Notes under the pieces: generated by a model
The model's database searches: none
Told to the model about the DNA's origin: nothing
What the model saw: only the letters and a program-made list of their open reading frames with translations
Shown: one piece after another, positions 36,186-45,008 of the stretch
Layout: every line of letters begins with the position of its first letter
How positions within the stretch are numbered: the first letter of the stretch is position 1
DNA from: Anaeromyxobacter dehalogenans 2CP-1
GTDB taxonomy: Bacteria > Myxococcota > Myxococcia > Myxococcales > Anaeromyxobacteraceae
Direction of reading: 5' to 3'
Assembly: GCF_000022145.1 (NCBI RefSeq)
Contig: NC_011891.1
Location: 124,001-188,000, forward strand
Length of the DNA: 64,000 nucleotides
Made by a program: the position numbers and the translations under genes

Positions 36186-37001
36186 GTGCGAGACCTGAGC
36201 TACGACCACGTCCCCTACCGGATGAGCGAGATCGAGCACCGGTACGGCGAGAACGTCCACATCGTCGCGAACCCCTTCCTGCTGGGCGCGCTCGCCACGC
36301 TGTGCTCGAAGGAGACCCGCCAGCCGGCCATCAACCGGCTGGTCCGGCTGCTGTACGAGGACCTCATCCGCACCGTGATGAACCACGAGTTCCCGCGGCG
36401 CCGGGTGGCGGTCCCCACCCGCATGATCGACAGCTCGCCGCAGGCGATCTTCGAGGGCGAGGTGGTCGACCGGCAGGTGCGCGCGGTGACGGTGAACATC
36501 GCCCGCGCCGGCGCGGTCCCGTCGCAGCTCGTCTACGACCTGCTCAACGAGACGCTCGAGCCGTCGCTGGTCCGCCAGGATCACATCATCATGAGCCGGA
36601 TGCTGGGCGAGAACGAGGAGGTCGTCGGCGCCGGCATCGGCGGGATGAAGATCGGCGGGGACGTGGACGACGCGTTCCTGCTCTTCCCGGACCCGATGGG
36701 CGCGACCGGCTCGTCGCTCGCGACCGCCATCGAGACCTACAAGAAGAAGGTGCCGGGGAAGGCGAGGCGGATCGTGAACATCCACCTCATCGTCACCCCC
36801 GAGTACCTGCGCAACATGACGAAGGCCCACCCCGACGTGCGGATCTACGCGATCCGGCTCGACCGCGGCCTCTCCCCGCCCGACGTCCTCGCGACCGTCC
36901 CCGGCACGCGCTGGGACGAGGAGCGCGGGCTCGACGACCACCAGTACATCGTCCCCGGGGGCGGCGGCTTCGGGGAGATCATGAACAACGCCTATGTCTA
37001 G
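36186..37001 (+). CDS. Uracil phosphoribosyltransferase-like protein
   Basis: 271 residues, longer than the 210 of typical Upp. It has the PRPP motif FPDPMGATGSSLATAI near 174-190 (DPMxATGxS as in Upp), IVNIHLIVTPEYLRNM, and the C-terminal GGGFGEIMNNAYV, close to the Upp ending (D-A-G-D-R/-FGT type). The N-terminal 60 residues (LSYDHVPYRMSEIEHRYG) are an extra segment. Likely UMP synthesis from uracil and PRPP, though the extra domain and variant ending leave room for another base. The start is GTG at 36186 with a -10 8 bases before. It overlaps hpt by 8 bases. Confidence 0.85.
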   Translation: MRDLSYDHVPYRMSEIEHRYGENVHIVANPFLLGALATLCSKETRQPAINRLVRLLYEDLIRTVMNHEFPRRRVAVPTRMIDSSPQAIFEGEVVDRQVRAVTVNIARAGAVPSQLVYDLLNETLEPSLVRQDHIIMSRMLGENEEVVGAGIGGMKIGGDVDDAFLLFPDPMGATGSSLATAIETYKKKVPGKARRIVNIHLIVTPEYLRNMTKAHPDVRIYAIRLDRGLSPPDVLATVPGTRWDEERGLDDHQYIVPGGGGFGEIMNNAYV

Positions 37002-37521
37002 CAGCCGCGCCGGCCTCGACGTGCTCATCTCCGAGGCGGACCTCCGGGCCCGCGTCGCGCAGATGGGCGCCGACATCACCCGCGACTACGCGGGGAAGAA
37101 CCTCGTCGTCATCGGCGTGCTGAAGGGCAGCTTCATCTTCCTCGCCGACCTGGTGCGCGCGGTCGACCTGCCGCTGTCGGTGGACTTCATCGGCATCAGC
37201 TCGTACCAGGGCACCCGCACCACCGGCGTCGTCCAGATCACGAGCGACCTCACCCGGCCCATCGACGGCAAGGACGTGCTGCTCGTCGAGGACATCATCG
37301 ACACCGGCCTCACCATGCGGTACCTGCTCGAGAACCTCTCGACCCGCAAGCCGGCCAGCGTGCGCATCGCCGCGCTCCTCGAGAAGCCCGCGCGCGCGCA
37401 GGTGAAGATCCCCATCGACTACCGCGGCTTCGTCATCGGCGACGAGTTCGTGGTCGGCTACGGGCTCGACTGGGACGGCAAGATGCGGAACCTGCCGTTC
37501 ATCGGGGTGCCGCGGACCTGA
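36994..37521 (+). CDS. hpt: Hypoxanthine phosphoribosyltransferase
   Basis: 175 residues. It converts hypoxanthine or guanine with PRPP to IMP or GMP. LKGSFIFLADLVR (PPi loop), GISSYQGTRTTG (flexible loop) and the PRPP motif VLLVEDIIDTGLTM near 95-108 are all intact; the base-binding segment is FVVGYGLDWDGKMRNLPF. It is coupled to the preceding uracil-type transferase (8-base overlap), giving a two-gene salvage operon. Confidence 0.96.
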   Translation: MSSSRAGLDVLISEADLRARVAQMGADITRDYAGKNLVVIGVLKGSFIFLADLVRAVDLPLSVDFIGISSYQGTRTTGVVQITSDLTRPIDGKDVLLVEDIIDTGLTMRYLLENLSTRKPASVRIAALLEKPARAQVKIPIDYRGFVIGDEFVVGYGLDWDGKMRNLPFIGVPRT

Positions 37522-37580: not shown

Positions 37581-38387
37581 ATGGCGGACGAGACCCCGCG
37601 CGCGCGCGCCGGATCCGGCGTGAAGGCGCTGCTCGCCTGGGTGGCCATCCTGGGCCTCGCCGGCGTGGTGGCGTGGCTCGCCTCCGAGCGGAACGCGCGC
37701 ACCTGGTACCTGGTGCCGGACGAGGGGCGCCTGGTGGTGATGAAGGGCCTCATGCTGCCCATGGGGCGGCAGGCCTTCTCGACCGACGACCCGGCGCTCG
37801 CCGCGGCCTACGCGCCGCTCGTGCCGCCGCCGGGCAAGCCGCTCCCGGCCGAGCGCGCCTTCGAGGAGCGCAGCCTGCTCGACCAGGGGCTGTTCGACCT
37901 GCTCGCCGGCTGGGCGCGCGAGGAGGTCGCCACCGGCGACCCGGCCCGGCTCGAGCGCGGCCTCGGCTACCTCGGGCGCGCCGAGCGGCTGGCCGGGATC
38001 TCGCCCGCGCAGCGGGACGAGCTCGGCGCCATCCGCGCCGAGTCCGGCTACCACGAGGCGCGGCGGCTGCTGGAGCGCGCCGCCGCCGAGCTGCGCGACG
38101 CGGCCGAGAAGCTGCGCGTCACCGCCGGCTCCCGCTCGTCGCGCGCCATGGACGCGCAGCTGCTCCTGAAGCAGCTCGAGCCGGCGGTGGACGCCACGCT
38201 CGGCGCGATCCGCACCGCCGCCCGGTCCGAGCCGGCCGCCGCGGAGAAGGGCGCCGGGCCCCCGCCCGCCGCGGGCGAGCCGGCCCCCGCCGCCGCCCCG
38301 GAACCGGGCCAGGCGCCGGCCGCGCAGCCGTCCGCCGCGCCCGTCGCACCGGCCGGGCAGCCGCCCCCGCCCGGCGACGGGCGGTAG
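37581..38387 (+). CDS. Membrane-anchored protein of unknown function
   Basis: 268 residues. One N-terminal helix (about 15-38, LLAWVAILGLAGVVAWLAS), then a predicted extracytoplasmic region with WYLVPDEGRLVVMKGLMLPMG, a helical segment at 90-205 (repeated Leu/Ala/Glu with LLERAAAELRDAAEKL) and a Pro/Ala-rich tail. I recognise no family; the helical part could be TPR-like, but no repeat is clear. Start ATG with CGGAGGA 8-13 bases upstream. It stands alone. Confidence 0.65.
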   Translation: MADETPRARAGSGVKALLAWVAILGLAGVVAWLASERNARTWYLVPDEGRLVVMKGLMLPMGRQAFSTDDPALAAAYAPLVPPPGKPLPAERAFEERSLLDQGLFDLLAGWAREEVATGDPARLERGLGYLGRAERLAGISPAQRDELGAIRAESGYHEARRLLERAAAELRDAAEKLRVTAGSRSSRAMDAQLLLKQLEPAVDATLGAIRTAARSEPAAAEKGAGPPPAAGEPAPAAAPEPGQAPAAQPSAAPVAPAGQPPPPGDGR

Positions 38388-38462
38388 GGCGGCCGCGCAC
38401 CTCCGGCGCCGCGTCGGCGGGCAGGGCCCGGGCGCCGCGCGCGGACCGGCCCTCCGCCGGTG

Positions 38463-38468
38463 TACCAT
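38463..38468 (+). promoter_or_regulatory. -10 element of the coiled-coil gene
   Basis: TACCAT, 8 bases before the ATG at 38477. Confidence 0.45.
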
Positions 38469-38476
38469 CCGGCGCC

Positions 38477-41314
38477 ATGGCCTCCTTTCACGCCCGGAAC
38501 GGCACCGGCGAGCTCCTCGCGCGCTACGCGTTCGTCGAGCCCCTCCTCGAGGGGCGACGGATCCTGGAGATCGGCGCGGCGGCCGCCACCGAGGGCGCGA
38601 CGGCCGCGTTCCTGGCCGAGCGCGGCGCGGCGGAGGTCCTGTCGATCGAGGACGACGGCGCCGCGCTCGCCGCCGCGGTGCGCGGCCCGCACGAGCCGTA
38701 CGTGCAGTTCCGCGCCGCACGCCCCGAGGACCTGCCCGCCGGCGCGTTCGACGTGGTGCTCCTCGCGGACGGCGCGGCGCTCGCCGCCGAGCCGGCGCGC
38801 GCGGCGGCCCTGGCGCGCCTGCTCGCGCCGGGCGGCCGGCTCGTCACCGCGGTGGACGCGGGCGGGCCGGGCCTGGCCGAGCTCGCCGGCGAGCCGCGCC
38901 GGGCGGCGCCGCCGGGGTACGAGGCGTTCGTGGGCGCGCTGCTGGGCCGCTTCGCGCAGGTGGAGGTGGCGGCGCAGTCGGCCACGCTGGGCTGGGTGTT
39001 CGGCATGGGCGGCGGCGACGAGCCGGAGCTGGCCATGGACGGCTCGCTCGCCGGGACCGCCGAGACCGCCGCGTACGTGGCGGTGTGCGGCGACGCGCCG
39101 TGCGGCCTGTCGGGCTTCACGCTGGTGGCGCTGCCGGCGGGGCCGCTCCTCGAGGAGGGCGCGGCCGGCGCGGCGTCCGCCGCGGCCCGGGCGCTCGCCG
39201 CGGACGCGCTGCGCGAGCGGGCCGAGGCGCTCGCGGCGCGCGACCTCGCGCTGGGCGAGCGGGACGCGGCCGCCGAGGCGCGGGAGCAGCTCCGCGCCGA
39301 GCTGGACGCGGCCGCCGCGGCCGCGCTCGACGCCGCGCGCGCCCGCGACCGCGTGCTCGCCGACGCCGCCGCCGATCGCGACCGCGCCGCCTGCGCCGAG
39401 CAGGCGGCCGCGGCAGCCGCCGAGGCGCGGGACGAGGCGCTCGCCGCGCGCGACGGGCTGGCGCGCGAGCTGGAGGCGCTCCGGGCCGGCGTGGACGACC
39501 TGCGCCGCTCGCGCCAGGCGGTGGAGGCCGAGGTGGATCGCCTCCGCGCCGGGGCCGAGCTCTCGGCGGCGCGGGCGCGGGAGCTGGAGGCGACGCTCGA
39601 CGCCGAGCGCGGCGGCGGGGCGGACGCGCGGGCCGAGCTGGAGCGGGCGGAGGGCGTCATCGCGGAGCGCACCCACGAGCTCGCCGAGGCGCGGGCCGCG
39701 CTCGCGACGCAGGCCGCGGCGGTGGCGCAGGCGGACGAGGCGCGCGCGCGCGCCGACGCCGCGCTGGCCGAGCGGCGCGAGGCGGCCGCCGAGGCGGAGG
39801 CCGCGCTGCAGGCGGCGCGCTCGGAGGCGCAGGCGGCCAAGGCCGCGCTGGAGGCGGCGCTGGAGCGCGCCTCGGTGGGCGAGGCCCGGCTGCCGGAGCT
39901 GGAGGAGGCGGTCGAGGCGCGCGCGCACGAGGCGGCGGAGGCGCAGGCGGCGCTGCGCGAGGCGCGCGACCGGATCTCGGCGCTGGAGGCCGAGGCGGAG
40001 CGCGGGCGCGAGACGCTGGCCGAGGCCCGCGCGGCGGAGGAGGTGGCGCGCCTCGACGCCGGCTCGGCCCGGGCCGAGGCCGACCGGGCGCTGGTGGACG
40101 CCGAGGCGGCGCGGGAGGAGACGGCCCGGCGGGCCGCCGAGCTCCGCACGCTCGAGGCCGCCCGCGCCCAGGTCGCCGCGGAGGCGGACACGCTGCGCGC
40201 CGAGGCCGGCGCGGCCCGCGCGCGCGCCGAGCGGCTCGCCGGCGAGGCGGAGGCCGCGCGGGCCCGGGCGGCCGAGCTCGAGGGCGCCGACGCCGCCCGC
40301 GACGCCGAGCAGCGCGAGGCGGCCGAGGCGCGGGCCGAGGCGCTCGCCGCGCGCGCCGGGGAGGTGGAGAAGCTCACCGCCGAGCTGGCCGGGGCGTCGG
40401 CCGCGGCCGGAGAGGCCGCCGCGCTGCGCGAGGCGCTCGAGGCCCGCGTGGCCGAGCTGGAGGCCCGCCTGGAGAGCGAGGCGGAGCGCGCGGGGCTGGT
40501 GGAGGCGCGCGCGGCCGAGGCGCTGGCGCGCCTGGAGAGCCTGGAGGAGGCCGGCGCCGCGCGCGAGGCCGAGCAGACCGCGGCGGTCCGGGCGGTCACG
40601 GCGCGCGCCGAGGCCGCGGAGGCGGCCGCGCGCGACGCCGAGGCCCGCGCCGCCGCGGCCGAGGCGCGGCCGGCGGCGCCCGCGCCGGACGCGGGGCTCG
40701 AGGCCGAGCTCGCCGCGGCGCGCAGCGCCGCCGACGTGGCCGGCGCGCAGGCGGCGGAGCTCGAGGCCGAGCTGCAGGCGGTCCGTTGGGAGAAGGACGA
40801 GATCGAGCAGCGGCTGCAGTCGCTCACCGCCTCGGGCGCGCTGGGCGGCGCCGGCGAGGTGAGCCGGCTGCGGGACGAGCTCGCCGCACGCGCGGGGGAC
40901 GGCGCGCTGCTGCGCAAGGAGCTCCAGCGCCTCGAGGCGCAGGTGGCCGAGCTGACGGCACGCCCGCTCGCCGCGCCCGCGCCCGCCGAGGAGGCCGAGG
41001 CGGTGCGCCGGGCCGCCGCCCACGCCGCAGAGCTGGAGGAGCGCCTGGCGGAGGCGCTCCGCCGCGCCGCGGACGCGGAGGCCGCCGCCGAGGCGGCCCG
41101 GGCCGCGCCGGCGCCCATCCCGGCGGTCGCGGCGGGCGAGGCGCTGAAGCGCGTTGCGCAGGAGAAGGACGCGATCGCCGCGCAGGTCGCCGAGCGCGAC
41201 CAGAAGATCGCGCGGCTGCAGCGCGAGGTGGCCGACAAGACCGAGCGGCTGGGCCGGCTCGCCAAGGAGATGGGCGAGCTGAAGGCGCGCGGCTTCGGCA
41301 AGATCTTCCGCTAG
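38477..41314 (+). CDS. Methyltransferase-like domain fused to a long Ala/Glu/Arg coiled coil
   Basis: 945 residues. Residues 1-240 resemble a class I SAM methyltransferase: RRILEIGAAAATEG (motif I position), VLSIEDD (acidic end of strand 2), FDVVLLADG and LLAPGGRLV. The glycine-rich loop is degenerate (GAAAA where GxGxG is expected), so SAM binding is doubtful. Residues 260-900 are almost pure coiled coil with no Pro except at 690-700. The last 65 residues (ERDQKIARLQREVADKTERLGRLAKEMGELKARGFGKIFR) are more conserved in look and end in Phe-Gly-Lys-Ile-Phe-Arg. This could be a scaffold or motility/polarity protein, as myxobacteria use head-plus-coiled-coil proteins of similar size; no specific function can be assigned. 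Confidence 0.75.
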   Translation: MASFHARNGTGELLARYAFVEPLLEGRRILEIGAAAATEGATAAFLAERGAAEVLSIEDDGAALAAAVRGPHEPYVQFRAARPEDLPAGAFDVVLLADGAALAAEPARAAALARLLAPGGRLVTAVDAGGPGLAELAGEPRRAAPPGYEAFVGALLGRFAQVEVAAQSATLGWVFGMGGGDEPELAMDGSLAGTAETAAYVAVCGDAPCGLSGFTLVALPAGPLLEEGAAGAASAAARALAADALRERAEALAARDLALGERDAAAEAREQLRAELDAAAAAALDAARARDRVLADAAADRDRAACAEQAAAAAAEARDEALAARDGLARELEALRAGVDDLRRSRQAVEAEVDRLRAGAELSAARARELEATLDAERGGGADARAELERAEGVIAERTHELAEARAALATQAAAVAQADEARARADAALAERREAAAEAEAALQAARSEAQAAKAALEAALERASVGEARLPELEEAVEARAHEAAEAQAALREARDRISALEAEAERGRETLAEARAAEEVARLDAGSARAEADRALVDAEAAREETARRAAELRTLEAARAQVAAEADTLRAEAGAARARAERLAGEAEAARARAAELEGADAARDAEQREAAEARAEALAARAGEVEKLTAELAGASAAAGEAAALREALEARVAELEARLESEAERAGLVEARAAEALARLESLEEAGAAREAEQTAAVRAVTARAEAAEAAARDAEARAAAAEARPAAPAPDAGLEAELAAARSAADVAGAQAAELEAELQAVRWEKDEIEQRLQSLTASGALGGAGEVSRLRDELAARAGDGALLRKELQRLEAQVAELTARPLAAPAPAEEAEAVRRAAAHAAELEERLAEALRRAADAEAAAEAARAAPAPIPAVAAGEALKRVAQEKDAIAAQVAERDQKIARLQREVADKTERLGRLAKEMGELKARGFGKIFR

Positions 41315-41326
41315 GGGTATCGCACC

Positions 41327-41860
41327 GTGACCGAGCCACGCCGCTACGAGCGCATCGACGTCGAGCTTCCCTGCCGGCTGTACGTGCCGGGCGAGCGCGG
41401 CCTCAAGTTCGAGGCCCACTGCACCTCGCGCAACCTCGGCCTGGGCGGCGTGTTCCTCTCCTCGTCGTTCCTGCTGCGCGAGGGGCTGGAGCTGTTCGTG
41501 GAGCTGGGGCTGCCGGCCGGGCCGCTCGCGATCCGCGCCCGGGTGGCGCACACCGTCCCGGGCGATCACCCGGAGCTGGAGGGCGGCTTCGGCGTCGAGT
41601 TCCTCGACGTGGACGCGGCCGGGCGCGAGACCCTGCTCCGCTACTTCACCCCGCTCCGCTACCACGAGTTCTACCGCGCCTTCGCCGGCGAGTTCCCGCA
41701 CCTGCGCGACCGCGTGCCGGTGGCCGACGTGGCCCTGCTCCTGAACCTGTGGGAGGAGTGGAAGGCCGTCGGCGAGGGCGGCCCCGCCTTCACCGCGTCG
41801 GGCGCGCCGCCCGCGCCGGCGAGGGCCGGCGCGGGGCCGGCGCGGCGCGGAAGGCGCTGA
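41327..41860 (+). CDS. PilZ domain protein
   Basis: 177 residues. PilZ domains bind cyclic di-GMP through an RxxxR motif and a (D/N)xSxxG motif. Here RRYERI at 5-10 gives Arg5-xxx-Arg9, but the second motif reads NLGLGG, with Gly in place of Ser, so binding is uncertain. GGFGVEFLD follows as in most PilZ domains. The C-terminal 70 residues hold a helix (DVALLLNLWEEWKAV) and an Ala/Pro tail. The start is GTG at 41327, 12 bases after the stop of the coiled-coil gene, so the two are likely co-transcribed. Confidence 0.87.
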   Translation: MTEPRRYERIDVELPCRLYVPGERGLKFEAHCTSRNLGLGGVFLSSSFLLREGLELFVELGLPAGPLAIRARVAHTVPGDHPELEGGFGVEFLDVDAAGRETLLRYFTPLRYHEFYRAFAGEFPHLRDRVPVADVALLLNLWEEWKAVGEGGPAFTASGAPPAPARAGAGPARRGRR

Positions 41861-44138: not shown

Positions 44139-45008
44139 ATGGGCGACGACCCCACCCGCGTCCGGACCCCGGAGGAGCGCGCCGCCGCCGCGGCCGGCCA
44201 CTGCCTCGTGTTCGTGGCGGGGGACGGCGCGCTCGGCCTGCGGGTGCCGCTCGACGGCGAGGTGGTGCTCGGGCGCGATCCGTCCTGCGCGGTGGCGCTG
44301 CCCGCCTCCGACGTCTCGCGCCGGCACGCCCGCGTGGTGCCGGACGGCGACGGCCACCTGGTGCTCGACCTCGGCTCCACCAACGGCACCTGGGTGAACG
44401 GCCGCGAGGTGGCGGTGCACCGGCTCGCCCCGGGCGACCGGGTGCAGGTGGGCGCGTTCGTGGCGCGCTACCTGCGGGCCGGCGACGCGGAGGAGTCGGA
44501 GCTCGCCGCGCTGGCCGACCTGGCGCTGCGCGATCCGCTCACCGGCCTCCCCAACCGCCGCGCCTTCGAGGAGTCGCTCCGCCGCGAGGTGGCGCGGGCG
44601 CGGCGCGGCGGCGACCGGCTGGCGGTGGCGGTGCTCGACGTGGATCGCTTCAAGGACGTGAACGACCGGCACGGCCACGCGGCGGGCGACGTCGCGCTCG
44701 CCGAGGTGGCGCGCCGGGCATCGGCGGCGCTGCGGGCCGGGGATCTCCTGGCGCGCATCGGCGGCGAGGAGCTCGCCGCCATCCTGCCCGGCGCCGACGT
44801 GGCGGCCGCCGCCGAGGTGGCCGAGCGCGTCCGTCGCGCGGTGGGCACGGAGCCGGTGCAGGCGGGCGGGCAGGCGATCCGCGTGACCGTCTCGCTCGGC
44901 TGCGCCGAGCTCGCGCCCGACGACGCCGACGGCGCCGACCTGTTCGCACGGGCCGACGGCCACCTGTACCGCGCCAAGCACGCCGGCCGCGATCGCGTGG
45001 AGTTCTGA
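44139..45008 (+). CDS. FHA domain-diguanylate cyclase
   Basis: 289 residues. FHA domain about 38-110: VLGRDPSCAVALPASDVSRRHARV and DLGSTNGTWVNG, the full phosphothreonine-binding pattern. GGDEF domain about 128-285: RDPLTGLPNRRAFEE, VLDVDRFKDVND, signature GGEEL and the I-site RxxD (RAGD) exactly five residues before it, so product inhibition is likely. It should make cyclic di-GMP under control of a Ser/Thr kinase through the FHA domain; the kinase at 27.8 kb is one candidate. Start ATG, -10 9 bases before. Confidence 0.93.
   Translation: MGDDPTRVRTPEERAAAAAGHCLVFVAGDGALGLRVPLDGEVVLGRDPSCAVALPASDVSRRHARVVPDGDGHLVLDLGSTNGTWVNGREVAVHRLAPGDRVQVGAFVARYLRAGDAEESELAALADLALRDPLTGLPNRRAFEESLRREVARARRGGDRLAVAVLDVDRFKDVNDRHGHAAGDVALAEVARRASAALRAGDLLARIGGEELAAILPGADVAAAAEVAERVRRAVGTEPVQAGGQAIRVTVSLGCAELAPDDADGADLFARADGHLYRAKHAGRDRVEF

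Follow-up and report, generated by a model that had tools for sequence, protein, structure and literature searches.

A myxobacterial head-coil protein family with a predicted methyltransferase fold, an altered SAM loop and a conserved membrane-protein neighbor

The head-coil gene and its locus

The window analyzed here is the whole 64,000-nucleotide stretch of Anaeromyxobacter dehalogenans 2CP-1 DNA (NC_011891.1, positions 124,001 to 188,000). Its forward strand carries an open reading frame (ORF) at 38477-41314, running from ATG to TAG, for a protein of 945 residues (here called the head-coil protein) in which a head domain is followed by a long coiled coil and a C-terminal tip (Table 1). The start site is supported because the N-terminal sequence MxxFxARxG is common to close relatives of the window protein. 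Two phosphoribosyltransferase genes (UPRT and HPT) and the gene for a membrane protein, UP268, lie upstream, and a PilZ gene follows. An antisense open frame of 1217 residues (38048-41701, minus strand) spans the head-coil gene; such a frame is expected at 83% GC and does not point to a gene. The names GH57, dapF, nrdA/B, thymidine-kinase and UPF0158 used for neighboring genes are ones that we presume from their sequences. No recognizable description of the head-coil protein was found in the open-access literature, where an unrecognized locus tag could hide one. Handles for genomes (G), loci (L), families (f) and genera (g) are given where these need to be told apart; some loci duplicate genomes that have G handles (e.g., L044/L062 and L032/L111), and the number of loci therefore does not equal the number of genomes.

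Table 1. Features of the head-coil locus, in window coordinates
Feature	Position	Strand	Basis
Uracil-phosphoribosyltransferase-like protein (UPRT), older neighbor	36186..37001	+	PF14681 E 1.5e-14; synteny
Phosphoribosyltransferase (HPT-like), older UP268 neighbor	36994..37521	+	PF00156 E 1.2e-29; synteny
UP268, single-pass membrane protein (putative TM), conserved neighbor	37581..38387	+	Structure model, adjacency counts
Head domain, residues 1-228	38477..39160	+	Predicted class I methyltransferase fold: AlphaFold2, Foldseek, VIA, family profile
Altered SAM loop, residues 28-42, RILEIGAAAATEGAT	38558..38602	+	Gly columns across 80 heads; loop length
Ala-rich coiled coil, residues about 240-866	39194..41074	+	Heptad periodicity, dN/dS
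C-terminal tip, residues 877-945, RDxKIxRLQREVxDKTxRLGRLAxEMGELK...GKIFR	41105..41311	+	Profile match at relatives' C terminus
PilZ-domain protein, 12 bases downstream of head-coil stop	41327..41860	+	Pfam PF07238 E 2e-13

The head domain and its SAM loop

The head had been read in the initial annotation as a degenerate methyltransferase, and structure prediction bore this out. The AlphaFold2 model, built with 40 related heads, has the topology of a class I methyltransferase (pLDDT 77, pTM 0.80); the predicted fold takes in residues 1-208. Methyltransferases were among the Foldseek matches listed for this model (best E 8e-9, prob 1.00), and VIA aligned it with 4kdr (UbiG) and 3l8d (Z 15.9, rmsd 2.7-3.1 over 174-176 residues). 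The predicted fold is like that of these two structures, but here the SAM loop is altered and a coil of ~640 residues and a C-terminal tip are attached. No methyltransferase family in Pfam or NCBIfam matched the head at E<=1, with Pfam returning only coil noise, and the assignment therefore rests on the predicted fold and on distant relatives.

The sequence ILEIGAAAATEG is present exactly in the head-coil protein. The SAM loop was aligned across 80 distinct heads, 76 from loci of the order Myxococcales and 4 from distant families, with the L055 methyltransferase kept outside the set as a control. None of the 80 heads compared has the GxGxG motif I of class I SAM methyltransferases: the central Gly is found in 0/80 and a Gly at the third position in 1/80 (L038), while the first position is Gly in 49/80 and Asp in 28/80. 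These counts rest on aligned columns; a loose GxGx(x)G pattern also flagged L037, L038 and L056. Other head residues are strongly conserved (Gln167 in 79/80, Asp98 in 77/80 and Asp92 in 77/80), and an acidic residue following strand 1 is kept in all 80 heads (76 Glu and 4 Asp). Since none of the 80 heads keeps the central Gly, the loss of the SAM loop is itself conserved, and since Gln167, Asp98 and Asp92 stay conserved, it appears constrained rather than decaying. Judged from these alignments, the usual SAM grip is gone from the head, yet the loop is under constraint. Compared with the nearest relative, the head has a dN/dS of 0.165 and the coil one of 0.277.

The loops of family f11 are near-canonical. 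They read Cys-x-Asp-Gly-x-Gly, with Asp-Gly-x-Gly in 8/8 heads, the central Gly in 4/8 and the whole GxGxG in 3/8; the f13 loop reads GAGGG. In a second alignment, the loop has three more residues in Myxococcales than in f11 and in the control methyltransferases, and the conserved Gly40, kept in 71/80 heads, falls near the third motif I Gly. Given the near-canonical f11 loop and the retention of Gly40 in Myxococcales, an altered SAM site is possible. Alternatively to a dead enzyme, the protein might be a still-active methyltransferase with an unusual SAM loop, whose coil would position the enzyme or serve to measure distance, a role proposed for WbdD. The intact predicted fold, the f11 and f13 loops, the conserved Asp92, Asp98 and Gln167 and the acidic residue after strand 1 are consistent with such an enzyme, but the missing central Gly, the replacement of the first Gly by Asp in 28/80 heads, the longer loop and the lack of a Pfam methyltransferase match at E<=1 argue against it, and we regard it as unlikely.

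The WbdD report (PMC3482155) describes an N-terminal methyltransferase domain and a C-terminal coiled coil in the Escherichia coli O9a protein, the same order of parts as in the head-coil protein. WbdD differs in being an active enzyme that also carries a kinase domain and works in O-antigen synthesis. The window protein gave no Pfam or NCBIfam match to a WbdD-type kinase domain, and no WbdD-type glycan locus was found, the neighbors of the head-coil gene being UPRT, HPT, UP268 and PilZ.

The distribution of the head was examined with two profiles. The first gave strong matches (E<=3.2e-39) at 120 places in 117/145 genomes of the order. The second, wider profile matched at E<=1e-6 in 21/33 genomes searched, mostly outside the order, with full-length head matches in families f10, f11, f13, f16, f26 and f30 and a split match in f27; the weaker matches among the 21 genomes resemble ordinary methyltransferases. 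A scan of genome contigs returned 53 loci, all with Myxococcota titles save L073 (Comamonas) and L107 (Proteobacteria bacterium). On this sequence evidence, the head-coil family spans the phylum Myxococcota. In a maximum-likelihood tree of 49 heads, each group with more than one row fell to one side of a branch, the Myxococcales heads had support of 94/87, and the f11 heads were placed beside two control methyltransferases. Because the f11 SAM loop is near-canonical, the pseudo-enzyme probably derives from an enzyme-like head; on this unrooted tree, the most economical interpretation is that several branches lost the SAM loop. In L073 (BNCN01000006.1), titled Comamonas sp. KCTC 72670, the head-coil and UP268 locus is of the Myxococcus type and its head is 87% identical to that of Corallococcus; the record is probably mislabeled or contaminated.

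The coiled coil and the C-terminal tip

A coiled coil of ~640 residues had been proposed from the sequence, and its heptad signal exceeded that of all shuffles: heptad power over residues 240-880 was 24.8, versus <=9.2 in 300 shuffles. Nine prolines interrupt the coil of the window protein. Heptad periodicity was above all 300 shuffles in 7/7 coils tested, narrowly so in L053. Complete head-coil ORFs in the order range from 358 to 2293 residues, a range that omits a possibly broken f3 frame of 329 residues (L039). Coil regions also give weak NCBIfam matches to SMC proteins; SMC membership was rejected, since TIGR02168 scored 30.8 bits against a cutoff of 567 and only coil stretches, with no ATPase head, were matched.

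The proposal of a distinct C-terminal module was upheld in that residues 877-945 were recovered as a separate unit of 65-70 residues ending in GFGKIFR; its presence in relatives held only in part. A tip profile built from seven Anaeromyxobacteraceae scored 111-123 bits in that family and 28.6 bits near the end of the f9 member L049. Among 13 distant relatives, the best tip match ended <=15 residues from the C terminus in 11; in 10 of the 13 it scored above the highest shuffle value, 5.4 bits. The tip was not recovered in Myxococcaceae, where, among the matches listed, the profile scored <=15.4 bits and lay hundreds of residues off the end (shuffled coils reached 9.3 bits in the Anaeromyxobacteraceae/Myxococcaceae comparison), nor was it found at the C terminus of three f30 members or of L047, L075 and L103. 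Because the best match lies at the C terminus in most distant relatives, the tip is probably old, and Myxococcaceae carry other tails. The dN/dS of the C-terminal 70 residues was 0.877, from only seven changes, and no conclusion was drawn from it.

The head-plus-coil-plus-tail design resembles that of FrzS and AglZ of Myxococcus xanthus, as had been suggested, and the architecture is indeed shared. According to published reports (PMC1974792, PMC3158785), FrzS and AglZ have an N-terminal domain without catalytic residues followed by a coiled coil, and dynamic localization of FrzS needs its pseudo-receiver, its 258-residue coil and its extreme C-terminal tail (PMC1974792). The head-coil protein is alike in having a long heptad-periodic coil after a putatively noncatalytic head, and its conserved C-terminal tip stands where FrzS has a functional tail. 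It differs in three ways: AlphaFold2 and VIA assign the head a methyltransferase fold instead of a receiver fold that lacks the phosphorylation residues, the coil is longer, and the neighbor is a membrane protein. Because the head fold differs, the head-coil protein is not a member of the FrzS/AglZ family, although by analogy it may work like one.

Conserved neighbors and a possible scaffold

UP268 was modeled (pLDDT 87.6) with a long N-terminal helix at residues 9-39, the putative TM segment, and a helical bundle at residues 97-215; its single long hydrophobic helix is the N-terminal one, and its tail is rich in Pro. It matched no Pfam family and no PDB entry (best E 0.68, which does not establish a new fold). 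The gene lies <=4 kb upstream of 110/120 strong head places; it shares the strand of the head at 19 of them and is on the opposite strand at 91. The 91 divergent places are Myxococcaceae-type loci, and the counts are therefore not independent. The other ten places have no UP268 match on that contig, and five of these ten are in genomes without any UP268 match (G012, G017, G022, G024 and G133). A strong head occurs without any UP268 match in 5/117 genomes, and UP268 occurs without a strong head in 17/129. UP268 is present in 129/145 genomes of the order and in 148/174 Myxococcota genomes sampled (order members included), usually after the UPRT and HPT genes. The gene order UP268 to head-coil recurs in distant families f26, f27 and f30 (5/20 loci), and in 13 loci of f10, f11, f13 and f16 no UP268 match was found near the head-coil gene.

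Thirty loci around UP268 from distant families and from relatives without a strong head were also compared. A head match adjoins UP268 in 7/30; two of the seven are short head-only remnants of ~215 residues in genus g6 (L154:6428-7084 and L155:6409-7050), and the other UP268 loci among those listed have different genes at the head-coil position. L156 and L153 have no head-coil gene at the corresponding place beside UP268. Because of these remnants and absences, we conclude that the head-coil gene was lost within Anaeromyxobacteraceae.

Directly downstream of the head-coil gene in f2, f3, f6, f9 and basal f4 loci is a gene for a protein of ~750 residues (L103:12888-15143 and equivalents) that has a hydrophobic segment at its N terminus, seven CarboxypepD_reg stretches and, at its C terminus, a PDZ domain. 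By sequence comparison, neither this protein nor UP268 matches a named family as a whole. Full-length or near-full-length profile matches (E<=3.2e-123) were found in 30/145 genomes, 15 of them beside the head-coil gene (judged by eye from coordinates and frame lengths), 1 apart on the same contig and 14 on other contigs. The gene was not at the downstream place in the Myxococcus, Corallococcus and Anaeromyxobacter loci examined; that place is held by the PilZ gene in Anaeromyxobacter loci and by what we take to be a dapF-like gene in Corallococcus and Archangium loci. These linkages would fit a trans-envelope structure in which the head-coil protein lies inside, UP268 sits in the inner membrane and the CarboxypepD_reg-PDZ protein occupies the periplasm, serving an envelope role and not motility. 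The direct downstream position and the 15 adjacent genes favor this, but the gene is missing from that place in the three genera just named and half of the matches lie elsewhere; we regard a trans-envelope structure as very unlikely.

The PilZ gene had been pointed out in the initial annotation as the telling neighbor. It is present downstream as described, and its conservation held within Anaeromyxobacteraceae, where 15/24 genomes have a match at E<=1e-15: 12/13 with a strong head and 3/11 without one, the latter three being draft assemblies and the counts ignoring relatedness. It follows the head-coil gene directly in Anaeromyxobacter and g5 loci with enough sequence; in the g4 locus L037 it does not. 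Conservation did not extend to loci of other families, from which PilZ was rejected as a general partner. As far as gene order tells, the PilZ association is local, and the general neighbor is UP268.

PilT-family genes (E<=1e-60) were found in 28/30 genomes tested. The two without them, G037 and G135, both have a head-coil gene, and several PilT-family genes occur without a strong head in G010, G013, G018, G021, four f7 genomes, G027 and G030. A plain type IV pilus link is unsupported, as the two kinds of gene are separable both ways. In G017, where UP268 is missing, a PilT-family gene (L036:12026-13582) lies next to the head-coil gene on its upstream side; G012, a relative of G017, has other genes at that place. 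These data bear on a further alternative, that the head-coil protein is specifically a scaffold for polarity or surface motility and corresponds in function to FrzS or AglZ. It would accord with the three-part design reported for FrzS (PMC1974792), with gliding-like flares described at A. dehalogenans colony edges (PMC2330069), with the PilZ neighbor in Anaeromyxobacteraceae and with the adjoining gene in G017; however, PilT-family and head-coil genes occur without each other and the head is not a receiver domain, and we consider this alternative unlikely.

Our preferred reading, tentative and a little short of an even chance, is a cytoplasmic head-rod-tip scaffold whose dead-enzyme head serves for docking and which UP268 links to the inner membrane. 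It draws on the computed fold, the conserved loop loss, the periodicity, the tip conservation and the gene neighborhood, and would work as follows: (i) the head, a methyltransferase fold without the usual SAM grip, would not catalyze and would instead be a domain on which a protein or an altered ligand docks; (ii) the coiled coil would make the protein oligomeric, forming a rod that can drift freely in length; (iii) the C-terminal tip would be a second docking site; (iv) in Myxococcales, UP268 would bring the scaffold to, or work with it at, the inner membrane; and (v) in Anaeromyxobacteraceae, the PilZ protein may add c-di-GMP input. Scaffold function and any link to motility are both putative. 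What weakens this reading most is the chance that the SAM site is altered but still live. In addition, the putative topology of UP268 counts against the scaffold tie: the protein would be mostly periplasmic, and a cytoplasmic coil could contact no more than a short stub of it. Strong heads and UP268 that occur without each other, and the f10, f11, f13 and f16 loci with no UP268 match nearby, also weigh against it. A broader account, which we rate as rather doubtful, would derive the whole scaffold family from a SAM methyltransferase: f11 members may be enzymes, Myxococcales, f10 and f16/f27/f30 would have docking heads, and in many Myxococcales a cytoplasm-to-periplasm assembly would form with UP268 and the seven-domain CarboxypepD_reg-PDZ rod.

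If the scaffold reading is true, this phylum-wide protein, whose dead-enzyme head is conserved, would be an organizer of myxobacterial cells that had escaped description, for which UP268 and the CarboxypepD_reg-PDZ protein offer candidate partners. The head-coil protein is present in M. xanthus (L075), where deletion and tagging are possible, and the loss of the loop across one order, set against its near-canonical form in another family, allows the enzyme-to-scaffold step to be tested directly.

Two genes past PilZ, at 44139-45008, lies a gene for a protein with FHA and GGDEF domains, likely a diguanylate cyclase. It puts c-di-GMP parts near the head-coil locus, a proximity that is suggestive only.
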